Assembly: GCA_902796705.1 (NCBI GenBank)
Contig: CADBQF010000030.1
Coordinates: 1-10,580, forward strand
DNA length: 10,580 nucleotides
Direction: 5' to 3'
From: Ruminococcus flavefaciens
GTDB taxonomy: Bacteria; Bacillota; Clostridia; Oscillospirales; Ruminococcaceae
Below, piece after piece: positions 1,822 through 8,826 of the stretch. Within the stretch, counting starts at the first letter, position 1. The number at the start of each line of letters is the position of its first letter. The notes beneath the pieces are model-generated. The model worked only from the letters and a program-made list of their open reading frames with translations, did no database searches and was not told the origin of the DNA. Position numbers and translations under genes: made by a program.

Positions 1822-2265
1822 ATGAAAGTCACACAGCCTTATGAACGCAGGGTATATTACTATGAAACAGATAAAATGGGCATAATGCACCATTCAAACT
1901 ATATCAGGATATTCGAGGAAACGAGGATATTCTTCCTTGAATGTGCCGGTATGTCTTTTGAGAAGATAGAGGAGAAAGGCCTGATGATGCCTGTTGTGTC
2001 GGTCGAATGTGAATACAGGAAGCCGCTCCAGTTCAATGATCCGTTTGAGGTCTATCCTGTGATCACGAGGTTCAACGGAACGACGCTCTATGTTTCCTAT
2101 ACTGTTATAAACAAGAGAACAGGCGAAGTTTCAGCGACAGGAAAGTCGTCACACTGTTTCACAGACGCATCGCTCCGTCCAGTCAGAACGAAGAAAGCAT
2201 ATCCGGACGTGTATGAAGTATTTGCTGAAAATCTCGTGACAGACGGAGGGACTGTGAGCAGATGA
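1822..2265 (+). CDS. acyl-CoA thioesterase, YbgC/FadM (4HBT) family
   Basis: A 147-residue single-domain hotdog-fold protein, the normal size for this family, which hydrolyses acyl-CoA (or similar) thioesters in the cytoplasm, usually as a tetramer. The N-terminal signature is clear: YYETDKMGIMHHSNYIRIFEE places the catalytic Asp at residue 17, the conserved Gly at 20, His 23-24 and Asn 26 in the loop before the long central helix. Residues about 50-120 supply the alternating strands of the sheet (PVVSVECEYRKPL, then VSYTVINK and ATGKSSHCF). The start is supported by AAAGAGGT 7 nt upstream and by the motif sitting at its usual distance from the N-terminus. It has its own promoter and is followed by another promoter, so it looks monocistronic. 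The substrate cannot be told from sequence; related proteins range from 4-hydroxybenzoyl-CoA to short- and long-chain acyl-CoA thioesterases. Confidence 0.9.
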   Translation: MKVTQPYERRVYYYETDKMGIMHHSNYIRIFEETRIFFLECAGMSFEKIEEKGLMMPVVSVECEYRKPLQFNDPFEVYPVITRFNGTTLYVSYTVINKRTGEVSATGKSSHCFTDASLRPVRTKKAYPDVYEVFAENLVTDGGTVSR

Positions 2266-2295
2266 CTTCTGCGGGAACTTTTTCCTGCGTGCCGC

Positions 2296-2324
2296 TTGCT
2301 ATTTCTGAATCTTTATGTTATAAT
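2296..2324 (+). promoter_or_regulatory. sigma-A promoter for the metalloregulator-murL-murD2 operon
   Basis: TTGCTA (2296-2301) and a perfect TATAAT (2319-2324) are 17 bp apart, with TGT before the -10 box giving an extended -10 element. It begins 31 nt after the thioesterase stop. The first gene starts at 2358, about 27 nt after the expected start of transcription. Confidence 0.75.
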
Positions 2325-2330
2325 ATATTA
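2321..2330. promoter_or_regulatory. palindrome overlapping the -10 box, possible operator
   Basis: taatatatta is a perfect 10-bp palindrome that covers the end of the -10 box and the start point of transcription, a position from which a bound repressor would block RNA polymerase. DtxR/MntR regulators often control their own genes through such sites, but this one is short, purely A+T and unlike the known DtxR or MntR boxes, so it may be chance. Confidence 0.25.
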
Positions 2331-2357
2331 AATATGATCTTTGAAAGGAGGAGCATT

Positions 2358-2741
2358 ATGGCTATTACAGAAGCAGTTGAAAATTATCTTGAAACAATAC
2401 TTATTCTTTCAAAAAAACAGCCGGATGTTCATGCGATCGATATATGTTCATATCTTGGCTATTCACGCCCGACAGTCTCGATCGTCCTCAAGAAAATGAA
2501 GGAAGAAAAACTGGTGTGCGTTGACAGCGACAATCACATTACCCTCACAGAAAAAGGCAGGAGCGTTGCTGAACGCATCTACGACAGGCATACTGTTCTT
2601 TCAGAATTCTTCATGTTCCTCGGTGCAAGCAAGGATAATGCTGTCGAAGATGCCTGCAAGATCGAGCATGATCTTTCTGATGAAACTTATTCGCTCCTGA
2701 AAGAGCATTACTTCAAACTCAGGGGCGAAAAAGAAAAATAA
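2358..2741 (+). CDS. DtxR/MntR-family metal-dependent transcriptional regulator
   Basis: A 127-residue regulator with a winged helix-turn-helix at about residues 22-70 (DICSYLGYSRPTVSIVLKKM is the recognition unit) and a helical metal-binding and dimerisation half. The C-terminal motif DACKIEHDLS matches the DtxR primary metal site (Cys, Glu and His at its C102, E105 and H106), and the RH before the dimerisation helix supplies another conserved His. The N-terminal helix has Asn 9 where MntR has Asp 8 and DtxR has Met 10; Glu 12 matches MntR Glu 11. There is no SH3-like third domain, as in MntR (142 residues). I chose the ATG at 2358 because AAAGGAGG precedes it and the family N-terminus begins there; the frame is open back to 2262 but that part covers the promoter. 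It is the first gene of an apparent operon with the murL-type gene, 17 nt downstream. The metal (Mn or Fe) cannot be decided. Confidence 0.88.
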   Translation: MAITEAVENYLETILILSKKQPDVHAIDICSYLGYSRPTVSIVLKKMKEEKLVCVDSDNHITLTEKGRSVAERIYDRHTVLSEFFMFLGASKDNAVEDACKIEHDLSDETYSLLKEHYFKLRGEKEK

Positions 2742-2758: not shown

Positions 2759-4141
2759 ATGAGCAGATTTGACGAACTCAGGAGCAAAGCTCCAGAATTT
2801 ATATACAGATCATTTACGATCGACGAAGAGCCGGAGAGCGTGAAGATAACGTTCGACTTTTCGATCAGCGGTATCGCTGATTTCAGACCGGGCTGGACTT
2901 TTCCGAAGCCGGCAGATGTCAGCATCGCCGGAGACAGGGTGTTCAGGAGACTTGCATTTTCGCTCGGAATGGCGGAAGTCGTGAGCTACTGGAAAGCCGC
3001 CTGTTCTCCCGTTATGCGAATCGAATGCGGAAAGCTCTCTCCGCAGCAGTGCGAATGGTGGAAGAAGCTGTGGTATCTCGGCCTCGGTGAATTCTTCTAC
3101 GTAAACGGCATTAAGGCTGACCGTGAGAGCCTTGTCAGGATCATCTCGGAAGGGGAGAATATGCTCCCGTCAGGAGAGCCTGTGCGTGAACCGGAAGGCT
3201 GCCTCGTCCCGATCGGCGGCGGCAAGGATTCGGCACTCACTATCGAGACTCTGACGAGTGCAGGAATGGCTTGCAGATGCTATTGCATCAATGACCGGGC
3301 TTCCGTCAGGGCTACCGTAAAGGCAGCAGGACTTCCCGAAGATGCCCTTATCACAGCAAAAAGACATTTTGACCGCTCTCTTATAGAACTCAACAAGGCG
3401 GGCTATCTGAACGGTCATACGCCGTTTTCGTCGGTCGTTGCTTTTTCGGCAGAGATAACGGCTTATCTCTACGGACTGAAATATATCGTCCTCTCCAATG
3501 AATCAAGTGCGAATGAAAGCACTGTCGCCGGTCAGGACGTGAATCACCAGTATTCAAAGAGTTTTGAGTTCGAGAGTGATTTCCACAGTTACGAAAAGGA
3601 GTTCCTCGGAACAGGTATATATTATTTCAGCTTCCTCAGACCGCTCGCAGAATTCCAGATAGCAAAGATGTTCGTGAGCCACAGGAAATACCTGCCCGTA
3701 TTCAGGAGCTGCAACCTCGGAAGCAAGGTATCTCCCGATATATGGTGCGGAGAATGCCCGAAATGTCTTTTCGTATGCCTGATACTTTCGCCATTCCTCA
3801 GCGATGCGGAACTTGTTGAAGTCTTCGGCAGGGATATGCTCAATGATGAGGCTATGCTGGGATACTTCCGTGAACTTGCCGGCCGCTCCGACCACAAGCC
3901 TTTTGAATGTGTCGGAAGCATCGACGAAGTGAACCTTGCTGTCTCTCTCGCAGTCCGAAGCAGAATGGAAAAAGGCACAGAGCTGCCCCTCCTTTTTAAG
4001 GAATACGTTTCGCAGGGCTGGTATCAGCCGGAAGGCCTTGATGAAAAAGACCGCATCTGCTGTGCGTCTTTCGACGGACAGAATCTTCTCCCCGAAGATT
4101 TCAGGGATATATTAACTAAAGAAATGGAGCGACTTCTTTGA
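2759..4141 (+). CDS. murL: MurL-type UDP-MurNAc-L-Ala-L-Glu epimerase
   Basis: In Xanthomonas, MurL converts the terminal L-Glu of UDP-MurNAc-L-Ala-L-Glu to D-Glu using ATP and Mg2+, which makes peptidoglycan D-Glu without free D-Glu. This 460-residue protein has the matching plan. Residues 10-140 are a poorly conserved N-terminal domain (FIYRSFTID, then DFRPGWTFPKP). Residues 150-161 are a PP-loop, VPIGGGKDSALT, for ATP. Then come NGHTPFSS (218-225), LSNESSANEST (245-255), VNHQYSKSFEFE (261-272), LRPLAEFQIAKMF (293-305), CNLGS (318-322), WCGECPKC (329-336), FGRDML (356-361) and HKPFECVG (379-386), all of which fit the family as I remember it. The four Cys could bind a metal. CCGGAGG precedes the ATG. 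The gene lies 17 nt after the regulator, and its stop overlaps the start of the MurD2-type ligase, the expected partner; this context strongly supports the call. Without it, 'PP-loop ATPase' would be the safe name. Confidence 0.87.
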   Translation: MSRFDELRSKAPEFIYRSFTIDEEPESVKITFDFSISGIADFRPGWTFPKPADVSIAGDRVFRRLAFSLGMAEVVSYWKAACSPVMRIECGKLSPQQCEWWKKLWYLGLGEFFYVNGIKADRESLVRIISEGENMLPSGEPVREPEGCLVPIGGGKDSALTIETLTSAGMACRCYCINDRASVRATVKAAGLPEDALITAKRHFDRSLIELNKAGYLNGHTPFSSVVAFSAEITAYLYGLKYIVLSNESSANESTVAGQDVNHQYSKSFEFESDFHSYEKEFLGTGIYYFSFLRPLAEFQIAKMFVSHRKYLPVFRSCNLGSKVSPDIWCGECPKCLFVCLILSPFLSDAELVEVFGRDMLNDEAMLGYFRELAGRSDHKPFECVGSIDEVNLAVSLAVRSRMEKGTELPLLFKEYVSQGWYQPEGLDEKDRICCASFDGQNLLPEDFRDILTKEMERLL

Positions 4142-5493
4142 TAAGTTTTTCTGAATATCTTGATAATTACACCAAGGAAAAAAATATATGTATCCTCGGC
4201 TTCGGCAGAGAGGGAAAGTCAACGTATCGTCTGATAAAAAAATACTGCTCTCCCTCATCTGTTACGATAGCCGACCTCAATCCTGTTGACAGCAGCAGCG
4301 TTTCTGCTGATACAAAGCTCATCTGCGGAAAGGACTACCAGAAGACACTGGACGATTTTGATATGGTATTCAAAAGCCCCGGCATCGTCCTTGAAAAACA
4401 GCCTGACGAGCTTGACTGCCTTGTCACATCTGAAACACAGGTCTTCTTTGAGGCCTTCCGTGAGCAGATAATCGGCATAACAGGAACAAAGGGAAAAAGT
4501 ACGGTGACTTCGCTCATATATCATATCCTGCGTGAGAGCGGTGTGGACTGCCGCATCGCCGGAAATATCGGTATACCGGTATTTGATATAGCAGAGGATA
4601 TGAGTGAGGAAACTGTCGTTGTGTGCGAACTCTCATGCCACCAGCTCGAATATATGACCGTTTCGCCGTCAAAGGCTGTTTTTCTCAATCTCTATGAGGA
4701 ACACCTTGACCATTACGGTACGCTCGAAAGATACTACAACGCAAAGAAGAATATCTATCTCCACCAGAGGGAAGATGATATGCTCCTTATAAATTCTGCC
4801 ATTGTGCCGGAAGAATACTGTTCATGGCACGTATATACGATATCTGACAAAGACGAAAAAGCCGACTGCTATGTCAGCGGAGGAAAAATATTTATCCGTG
4901 GCAGCGAAGAATATACTATCCCTGCCGGCCGTGTGAAGCTCCTCGGTATCCACAATCACTACAATATCGCCGCTGCGTATGAGATGACGGTCATGACATC
5001 ACTTGTCGGACAGGAAGACTTCGACAAGGCTGTATGCACGTTTGATCCGCTCGCTCACCGCCTTGAATTTGTAACAACGGTCAGCGGAGTCCGCTACTAT
5101 GACGATTCTATCTCCACAGCCTGTGCTACGGCTATAGAAGCTGTAAAGAGCGTGCCTGATGCCGGAACTGTCCTCATCGGAGGAATGGACAGAGGCATCG
5201 ATTATACGTCTCTTGTAGATTTCCTTGCACAGTCTGATGTGAACGTCATCTGCATGGAAGCCTCCGGAAAGAGAGTCTTCGATATGCTCTCAACGGCTGC
5301 TCCCGGACAGGAGAACAGGATAAGATACGTTCCGCACCTTGACGATGCTGTGAAGCTCGCATCAGAGATAACTCCTTCCGGAAAGAGCTGTGTGCTTTCT
5401 CCGGCTGCCGCAAGCTACGGCATATTCAAGAATTTTGAAGAGCGTGGCGATGTATTCAAGCAGCTCGTCCGTGATCTCGAAAAAAACGCCTGA
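4138..5493 (+). CDS. murD2: MurD2-type UDP-MurNAc-L-alanine--L-glutamate ligase
   Basis: A 451-residue Mur ligase of the MurD branch that adds glutamate to UDP-MurNAc-L-Ala in the cytoplasm. The N-terminal Rossmann-like domain opens with ILGFGREGKST (19-29). The central ATPase has the P-loop GTKGKST (116-122), the EEHLDHYG segment (187-194) and a nearby Lys pair (203-204) where the family has its carbamylated Lys. The C-terminal domain has YYDDSISTA (320-328), GGMDRGIDY (348-356) and LSPAAASYGIFKNFEERG (420-437). Canonical D-Glu-adding MurD has DSKAT, whose Lys contacts the D-Glu carboxylate; here it is DSIST, the form found in MurD2 enzymes that use L-Glu. The start is a TTG at 4138 that overlaps the previous stop by 4 nt, with GGAG 8 nt upstream (4126-4129). 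This coupling fits a shared two-step reaction. No terminator is visible after it. L-Glu specificity is inferred from motif and partner, not shown. Confidence 0.87.
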   Translation: MISFSEYLDNYTKEKNICILGFGREGKSTYRLIKKYCSPSSVTIADLNPVDSSSVSADTKLICGKDYQKTLDDFDMVFKSPGIVLEKQPDELDCLVTSETQVFFEAFREQIIGITGTKGKSTVTSLIYHILRESGVDCRIAGNIGIPVFDIAEDMSEETVVVCELSCHQLEYMTVSPSKAVFLNLYEEHLDHYGTLERYYNAKKNIYLHQREDDMLLINSAIVPEEYCSWHVYTISDKDEKADCYVSGGKIFIRGSEEYTIPAGRVKLLGIHNHYNIAAAYEMTVMTSLVGQEDFDKAVCTFDPLAHRLEFVTTVSGVRYYDDSISTACATAIEAVKSVPDAGTVLIGGMDRGIDYTSLVDFLAQSDVNVICMEASGKRVFDMLSTAAPGQENRIRYVPHLDDAVKLASEITPSGKSCVLSPAAASYGIFKNFEERGDVFKQLVRDLEKNA

Positions 5494-5500
5494 TCCCGTC

Positions 5501-5529
5501 TTGACATATACCTGAAAAAAGTGTATAAT
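5501..5529 (+). promoter_or_regulatory. consensus sigma-A promoter for the 5563-6520 unit
   Basis: Perfect TTGACA (5501-5506) and perfect TATAAT (5524-5529) are spaced by 17 bp, the strongest promoter in the window. It starts 7 nt after the ligase stop. Transcription would begin near 5536, leaving a leader of about 27 nt. Confidence 0.88.
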
Positions 5530-7413: not shown

Positions 7414-8826
7414 ATGCGTGTATCAAGGATAATTGCAGCTCTGCTCCCGGCAGCTCTCATTGCAGCCGTTCCGTGTGCATATGCAGCGGAGGACTCAGAC
7501 AAAATGGACTACACCAAAGACGGAGCCGTCGATGTTTTTGACCTTATCACGGCGAAACAGACGGCTTCTCCGGCTGATGTCATAAAAGTCAGGGATTTCA
7601 TTATGACCGGTAACAGACGTGATTACGAACTTGTATGGAGTGATGAATTTGACGGGACTTCGCTCAATATGGATAAATGGTCATACGAACTCGGCAACTG
7701 GAAGCTCGACGAGAACGGCAATTACATCACCGGCGGCTGGGGCAACAACGAGCAGGAATTCTACACCGACAGAAATGCTTCCTTAAAGGACGGCATACTC
7801 ACGATCTCTGCACGCAGGGAGAATCATTCCGATGAAGTTCAGGGAAATTATGAGTATACTTCCTCCAGACTCAGCACCCAGCATAAATTCTCCGTATGCG
7901 GCGGAAAGATAGAAGTCCGTGCAAGATGCGACAGCGGAAAGTCCCTCTGGCCGGCGATATGGATGCTTCCGGAGGACAGCGTTTACGGCGGCTGGGCAGC
8001 TTCCGGAGAGATAGACATAATGGAAGGCTGGGGAAGCACTCCGGAGAAGATATGCGGAACTATCCATTTCGGTGACGTGTGGCCGGGGAATACTTATCTC
8101 ACCGGTGAATATACTTTCCCCGGCGGAGATTCCACTGAAAACTGGCATACATACAGCATCGAGTGGGACAGGAGCGAGATACGCTGGTATGTCGATGATA
8201 CGCTCTACAGCACTCAGTCAGACTGGTACAGTGCGAACAGGAGTTATCCTGCACCGTTCGATCAGAAATTCTATATGATACTCAATCTTGCGGTAGGCGG
8301 ACATTTCGACGGAGTTGACGGCATATACGCCGATCCTTCGATATTTGCGGACGGAAGCAAAGACTTTGACATAGACTATGTGAGAGTTTATCAGCGGAAA
8401 GGCTATGACTTCAAACCGTCGGAGATAAGATCGGAATCGCTCTCCTCCTACATGGAAGGTTCTTCGGCTTCACTGACTAACAAGGACGGCTGTTCGGTTT
8501 TCAGCATCGATGATGCGGGTTCGCTCGAATACGGCATAATGGGACTTCTTAATGCGAGAAAGGTCAAAGCAGGCGAGACTCATACGCTCTCTTTCGATGT
8601 TTCTTCCGACAAGACGAGAGAGATGTTAGTTACCGTTGAGGACAGCTCATACAACAGATATCTCAACAAGAAAATAACCATAACGCCCGAAAAGACACAC
8701 TACAGCTTCGCTGTCACATTTGAAAATGATATGTCGGCTGATATCAAATTCCAGCTTGGCAATATCGGAGATGCCTCCACTCTCGGACATCATGAAGTTA
8801 CATTATATGATATTAAGTGGGATTGA
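7414..8826 (+). CDS. secreted GH16 beta-glucanase with C-terminal CBM and half-dockerin
   Basis: This 470-residue secreted enzyme should hydrolyse beta-1,3 or mixed beta-1,3-1,4 glucans (laminarin or lichenan type). A signal peptide ends near residue 24 (AYA). Residues about 31-67 look like one dockerin repeat: DYTKDGAVDVFDLITAKQ has the calcium-loop pattern, but the second helix (about 53-67) has no calcium loop. Residues 70-328 are the GH16 jelly-roll, starting at ELVWSDEFDGTSLN. The catalytic motif GEIDIMEGWG puts the nucleophile at Glu 199, the assisting Asp at 201 and the acid/base at Glu 204; WPAIWMLP (179-186) and DFDIDYVRVYQR close the domain. Residues about 338-470 form a beta-sandwich resembling CBM4/9 modules (SFDVSSDKTREMLVTVED, then FQLGNIG and VTLYDIKWD). 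GGAGG (7404-7408) is 5 nt before the chosen ATG; another ATG at 7410 is out of frame and too close. It follows nfo by 12 nt and ends in a strong terminator. The exact glucan is not predictable. Confidence 0.93.
   Translation: MRVSRIIAALLPAALIAAVPCAYAAEDSDKMDYTKDGAVDVFDLITAKQTASPADVIKVRDFIMTGNRRDYELVWSDEFDGTSLNMDKWSYELGNWKLDENGNYITGGWGNNEQEFYTDRNASLKDGILTISARRENHSDEVQGNYEYTSSRLSTQHKFSVCGGKIEVRARCDSGKSLWPAIWMLPEDSVYGGWAASGEIDIMEGWGSTPEKICGTIHFGDVWPGNTYLTGEYTFPGGDSTENWHTYSIEWDRSEIRWYVDDTLYSTQSDWYSANRSYPAPFDQKFYMILNLAVGGHFDGVDGIYADPSIFADGSKDFDIDYVRVYQRKGYDFKPSEIRSESLSSYMEGSSASLTNKDGCSVFSIDDAGSLEYGIMGLLNARKVKAGETHTLSFDVSSDKTREMLVTVEDSSYNRYLNKKITITPEKTHYSFAVTFENDMSADIKFQLGNIGDASTLGHHEVTLYDIKWD

Follow-up and report, generated by a model that had tools for sequence, protein, structure and literature searches.

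The 10,580-nt stretch of DNA analysed here (the window; contig CADBQF010000030.1 of GCA_902796705.1, Ruminococcus flavefaciens) carries two overlapping genes whose products are a homologue of the epimerase MurL and a Mur ligase that appears to be of the L-Glu-specific MurD2 type. The two open reading frames, placed by the earlier note at 2759–4141 and 4138–5493 with a 4-nt overlap, were confirmed in their coordinates and in the shared letters, TTGA. The genes and the motifs of their products are as follows.

2759..4141, plus strand: murL, encoding a MurL homologue of 460 amino acids, ATG start (profile NF041275)
3215..3232, plus strand: PP-loop GGGKDS of MurL, residues 153–158 (motif position and conservation)
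3707..3766, plus strand: four-cysteine cluster of MurL (C318, C330, C333, and C336), a possible metal site (conservation)
4138..5493, plus strand: murD2, encoding a putative UDP-MurNAc-L-Ala ligase of the L-Glu (MurD2) type, 451 amino acids, TTG start (TIGR01087, specificity residues, and tree)
4696..4710, plus strand: EEHLD of MurD2, residues 187–191, in which Glu188 corresponds to X. oryzae MurD2 Glu197 and E. coli MurD Asp182 (alignment)
5179..5196, plus strand: GGMDRG of MurD2, residues 348–353, in which Arg352 corresponds to X. oryzae MurD2 Arg358 and E. coli MurD Lys348 (alignment)

A GGAG is located a few bases 5′ of the TTG start of murD2. The TTGA overlap is conserved at 10 of 11 additional loci, comprising all three genomes of the same genus (L018, L021, and L030) and seven of eight “Ruminococcus sp.” records (L007–L010 and L012–L014), which we take to belong to the window's genus and have MurLs 66–71% identical. 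At the exception, L011, the MurL stop lies slightly earlier and there is no TTGA overlap.

The murL product matched NF041275 with an E-value of 3.8e-74 (249.8 bits, residues 69–397), which is in agreement with the earlier description of a PP-loop protein of the Xanthomonas MurL type. NF041275 is an equivalog model named for Xanthomonadales, to which X. sacchari MurL reaches 836.5 bits, and its cut-off of 700 bits is missed by the window protein. The proposed check against the MurL family was thus strongly positive by E-value and negative by the cut-off of the model; judged on sequence, the protein is clearly homologous to MurL and remains below the equivalog level. Both this match and that of the neighbouring ligase to TIGR01087 are far above chance level. 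No significant Pfam match was found for MurL in the Pfam copy searched, where PF06508 (QueC) was absent even at an E-value of 10. Among the matches listed, precomputed PF26298 and PF26299, which we take to be MurL domains, were present on 120 MurL relatives. Alignment of 11 MurL sequences (six from the window's family, one from a faecal contig, X. sacchari, and three from Pseudonocardia) gave 46 invariant columns, indicating that the homology extends through most of the protein and that core residues are kept. Gly154, Gly155, Asp157, and Ser158 of the PP-loop are invariant in this set, and the four cysteines are invariant both here, including the Xanthomonas and Pseudonocardia proteins, and in an alignment of 31 sequences. 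A comparable zinc site is present in QueC. As the earlier note had anticipated, annotation conceals the family: the source names of relatives, where given, are “hypothetical protein”, among the matches listed “hypothetical protein [Ruminococcus sp.]” and “hypothetical protein rflaF_01604”, the rflaF tag presumably denoting R. flavefaciens.

The predicted structure of MurL, with a predicted local distance difference test score (pLDDT) of 90.9, matched a QueC-type PP-loop fold of QatC-like character over the PP-loop domain. Such a fold agrees with the known ATP-to-AMP reaction of MurL. A QatC-like defence role was considered for the PP-loop protein on account of the similar fold and was rejected, as the operon and the MurL profile argue otherwise.

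The murD2 product scored 311 bits against TIGR01087 (murD), above the cut-off of 212. Glu197, Arg358, Pro433, and Phe435 of X. oryzae MurD2 correspond to Asp182, Lys348, Ala414, and Leu416 of E. coli MurD; the double change E197D/R358K turns the X. oryzae enzyme to D-Glu, and P433A and F435L leave its stereospecificity as in the wild type (PMC8788868). The numbering was confirmed on the X. oryzae protein P0196 (E197, R358, P433, and F435), and residue positions are given below by E. coli numbering after alignment with E. coli MG1655 MurD. We compared 31 MurDs from MurL-bearing records (23 genomes of the window's family and the eight named records L007–L014; some are near-identical and not independent) with 27 MurDs from family genomes lacking MurL (23 selected from the 176 genomes with MurI above the cut-off and four genomes lacking both MurI and MurL). 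At position 182, 29 of the 31 carry Glu and the other two Asp, versus Asn in 26 of the 27 and Asp in one, and position 348 is Arg in 31/31 versus Lys in 27/27. The combination of Glu and Arg was also present in 8/8 Xanthomonadaceae-type MurD2s chosen among the matches to X. sacchari MurD2. The MurD of 3lk7, which we take to be a Streptococcus enzyme, has Arg at 348 with Thr at 182, so that Arg alone is no proof of MurD2.

Twenty-one alignment columns separate the MurDs of MurL-bearing and MurL-lacking genomes; Xanthomonas MurD2 carries the majority letter of the former in 15 of them, in 10 of which E. coli MurD also differs from that letter. A maximum-likelihood tree with 67 rows placed the 31 MurDs of MurL-bearing records in one clade (100/99), and a branch supported at 95/90 set them, together with the Xanthomonas MurD2s, apart from the other MurDs of the window's family. 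The shared columns and the tree speak for common descent rather than for convergence at two sites. With both experimentally defined MurD2 residues present and this grouping, the earlier assignment of the ligase to the MurD2 type is borne out.

The sources of D-Glu were then searched for in the window's genome, a 2.27-Mb draft assembly (441 contigs) that is 88.7% complete. The genome-wide check proposed in the earlier note for murI, D-amino-acid transaminase, and a second murD gave no TIGR00067 match for glutamate racemase (MurI) at an E-value of 0.001 (the same search was positive in 10 of 14 control genomes), a best transaminase match (TIGR01121) that was partial and, at 39 bits, fell far short of the 277-bit cut-off, and no second MurD in the TIGR01087 search of the draft. 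The latter search returned one match above the cut-off and four weaker ones, which are MurC, MurE, MurF-like, and MurT-like proteins, the last two being below the cut-offs of their own models. The MurF-like match (G000:C331, locus L004) contains one TGA and one TAA, possibly owing to a sequencing or frame error.

One rival explanation is that the ligase is a diverged ordinary D-Glu MurD and the PP-loop protein has another job, such as QatC-like protein modification. We regard this as very improbable, since both specificity positions agree with MurD2, an ordinary MurD would have no MurI, and nothing beyond a weak transaminase match, to supply it, and the two genes adjoin in 21 of 23 family genomes and in X. 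sacchari.

The distribution in the window's family, examined in 217 genomes, points in the same direction as the gene content of the draft. MurL was present in 23 genomes (11 of 126 genera) and MurI above the cut-off in 176, the latter being found in 0/23 MurL-bearing versus 176/194 MurL-lacking genomes (Fisher p 3e-20, with genomes that are not independent). MurI matches numbered 189 in total, of which 13 were below the cut-off: eight in MurL-bearing genomes and, ordered by E-value, those in G037, G046, G196, G068, and G095. The eight weak matches were rejected as MurI; all pass TIGR00035 (amino-acid racemase), five also pass CuyB (cysteate racemase), and none passes MurI. Exactly one MurD above the cut-off was found in each of the 23 MurL-bearing genomes, and it adjoins MurL in all except G108 and G188, where MurL and MurD2 are on separate contigs; the pair can thus be split. 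A murD deletion scar beside mraY was also considered and dropped, as murD was not beside mraY in 15/15 MurL-lacking genomes compared.

The transaminase was searched for in 36 genomes, all without MurI above the cut-off (G037, G046, and G196, with weak MurI matches, lay outside this search). The best matches in the 23 MurL-bearing genomes were 31–46 bits. A transaminase-like gene scoring 225–233 bits, below the cut-off, is present in four genomes with neither MurI nor MurL (G003, G125, G200, and G098) and is possibly a third route to D-Glu. Genomes lacking MurL, MurI, and a strong transaminase match were G016, G049, G070, G072, G123, G128, G194, G198, and G213, several of which are incomplete; G072, at 99% completeness, has no MurI match and a transaminase match of 26 bits. 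The three routes seem to divide the family among them, with some genomes fitting none. A draw of 398 genomes from the phylum had MurL in the window's own genome only (among the genomes listed, one other is of the same family), and MurL is accordingly rare, rather than absent, outside the family.

From these results, we conclude with high confidence, on comparative sequence grounds, that murL-murD2 is this organism's route to peptidoglycan D-Glu, in place of MurI and classical MurD. The basis for this route is homology, the specificity residues, the fold prediction, the gene pairing, and the absence of a MurI, second MurD, or strong transaminase match in the draft. The earlier note had proposed that D-Glu is made on the nucleotide precursor, either replacing or backing up MurI; this is supported, and the co-distribution favours replacing. 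MurL-MurD2 most likely replaces MurI in this organism because the draft shows no MurI, one MurD, and a weak transaminase match, and because none of the 23 MurL-bearing genomes has MurI above the cut-off.

The alternative in which D-Glu also comes from MurI, from a transaminase, or from an amino-acid racemase of broad range, with MurL-MurD2 as a conditional back-up, appears unlikely. It draws on the TIGR00035 racemase in 8/23 MurL-bearing genomes, which might supply some D-Glu, on the 88.7% completeness of the window's genome, by which an apparent gene absence may be a gap (the other 22 MurL-bearing genomes are at least 96% complete), and on MurI above the cut-off in 6/120 genomes of the same genus (G628, G656, G664, G666, G692, and G693), with a weak match in two more, in a count that covers MurI only and not MurL. 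Five of these six MurIs were compared and are 69–97% identical to each other and 42–75% identical to nine MurIs of other genera (nine of ten such loci, L039 being left out); these values agree with genes of the window's family, but binning errors may be involved. The alternative is opposed by the lack of MurI above the cut-off in the 23 family genomes and of any MurI match in the window's genome, and by the single MurDs of the 23, of which 21 have Glu/Arg at the two positions and two (L065 and L067) have Asp/Arg, so that no dedicated D-Glu ligase is seen.

Replacement by MurL-MurD2 is preferred over a back-up role. The three observations cited for a back-up count against replacement, together with several others: the score of the window MurL below the 700-bit cut-off; Asp at position 182, the same as in E. 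coli, in L065 and L067; Ala and Tyr in the window ligase at the places of Xanthomonas Pro433 and Phe435, residues whose mutation left stereospecificity unchanged (PMC8788868); the six of 21 separating columns in which Xanthomonas MurD2 lacks the letter of the MurL-bearing genomes; and the program warnings on long branches and uneven composition for the join of the Xanthomonas MurD2s. Position 319, which has also been tied to L-Glu acceptance, shows no difference between the two groups and was discarded as a MurD2 mark, Ile occurring in both. A further point against comes from three Pseudonocardia plasmids (L120, L121, and L122) with MurL homologues annotated as hypothetical (300–323 bits to NF041275, match about 4001–5167), where no MurD2-like gene was found within about 4 kb on each side of the homologue. 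These homologues overlap a convergent large gene, with a WD40 repeat in two of three, and the MurL family may hold second or other functions.

By analogy with the X. oryzae pair, we infer that Ruminococcus MurL and MurD2 perform the same reactions. MurL, as a QueC-type PP-loop enzyme, would adenylate the α-carboxylate of the attached L-Glu, converting ATP to AMP and PPi, and the adenylation would acidify the α-proton; the PP-loop site would be the adenylating site. Carboxylate adenylation by MurL is a proposal, not a demonstrated step (PMC8788868). We lean moderately towards a broader picture in which MurL-MurD2 took the place of MurI and MurD in a set of gut and rumen genera centred on Ruminococcus, whose walls would then not depend on free D-Glu, and in which the genera next to them rely on MurI or on a transaminase, giving three alternative solutions in one family. 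In this picture MurL has a QueC fold with QatC architecture, so that wall epimerisation and QueC/QatC chemistry would share an ancestral carboxylate-activating scaffold.

The flanking features are as follows.

2262..2741, plus strand: DtxR/MntR-type regulator (PF02742/PF01325; NF008273 with an E-value of 1.3e-22, below the cut-off)
5501..5529, plus strand: sigma-70 consensus promoter, 12/12, TTGACA-17-TATAAT, just 3′ of murD2

The regulator gene precedes murL by 17 nt and probably shares its operon. A relative precedes murL at 11/11 loci (L007–L014, L018, L021, and L030), and none was found at the murL loci of other genera in the flank of up to about 1.5 kb examined. Its retention before murL-murD2 raises the possibility, from gene order, of metal-linked control of a cell-wall step. 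The promoter likely marks the start of the next unit. Neither a tRNA gene nor an Rfam match above the gathering score was found in the window. A dockerin-bearing protein (379–1413) and a GH16/CBM4_9 glycanase (7414–8826) are in line with a fibre-degrading Ruminococcus. A MurL-MurD2 pair (43% and 39% identity) is also present on L123 (MT836755), an 8.9-kb human faecal contig deposited as Bacteriophage sp. A phage origin of the pair was rejected, as this unverified contig, the sole match in the phage collection, is probably mislabelled bacterial DNA.

The pathway has been proposed as a narrow-spectrum drug target against pathogens (PMC8788868). If it also provides D-Glu in Ruminococcus and its relatives in gut and rumen, drugs directed at it could affect these commensals, models built from genomes could wrongly class them as D-Glu auxotrophs, and free D-Glu from them should not be assumed. 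The predicted QueC/QatC-type fold would also offer a testable active site for the poorly understood MurL reaction.

The pathway itself is known. The MurD2 and MurL reactions are established in X. oryzae, with ATP converted to AMP and epimerisation in one direction only, and orthologues from Micromonospora and Salinispora function in vitro (PMC8788868). Low-similarity orthologues are described in a fungus, cyanobacteria, and an amoeba (PMC5808125). For the pathway, PMC8788868 lists some Gammaproteobacteria, Alphaproteobacteria, and rare actinobacteria; Ruminococcus and related Bacillota, as judged from their genes, would lie beyond these groups. No work on MurL from Ruminococcus or from another member of the Bacillota was recognised in a literature search of titles and abstract beginnings, and the term “murl” was rejected as a pointer to MurL, as it means glutamate racemase, murI, in the passages checked.

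QatC, QueC, and Cap9 are related to the window MurL by fold, but they are 11–18% identical to it in alignments, act on another substrate in another pathway, and have Ser as the first residue of SGGxDS where the window MurL has Gly. The canonical MurI and MurD of the family serve the same peptidoglycan step, and the MurDs share Glu157, His183, and Lys198 (31/31 with MurL and 27/27 without); the canonical MurDs, however, are 27–33% identical to the window ligase and have Asn/Lys rather than Glu/Arg at positions 182/348. The window pair resembles X. oryzae MurL (XOO_1319) and MurD2 (XOO_1320) in the MurL profile, in the residues equivalent to Glu197 and Arg358, and in the lack of a MurI or strong transaminase match in the genome, as reported for X. 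oryzae (PMC8788868). It resembles X. sacchari in the adjacent and overlapping murL and murD, the PP-loop GGGKDS, and the four cysteines, although identity is low (37% over 319 columns for MurL and 26% for MurD2). It differs from the Xanthomonas systems in having Ala/Tyr in place of Pro433/Phe435 and in its setting, a Ruminococcus-like Bacillota host with an MntR-like regulator gene upstream.
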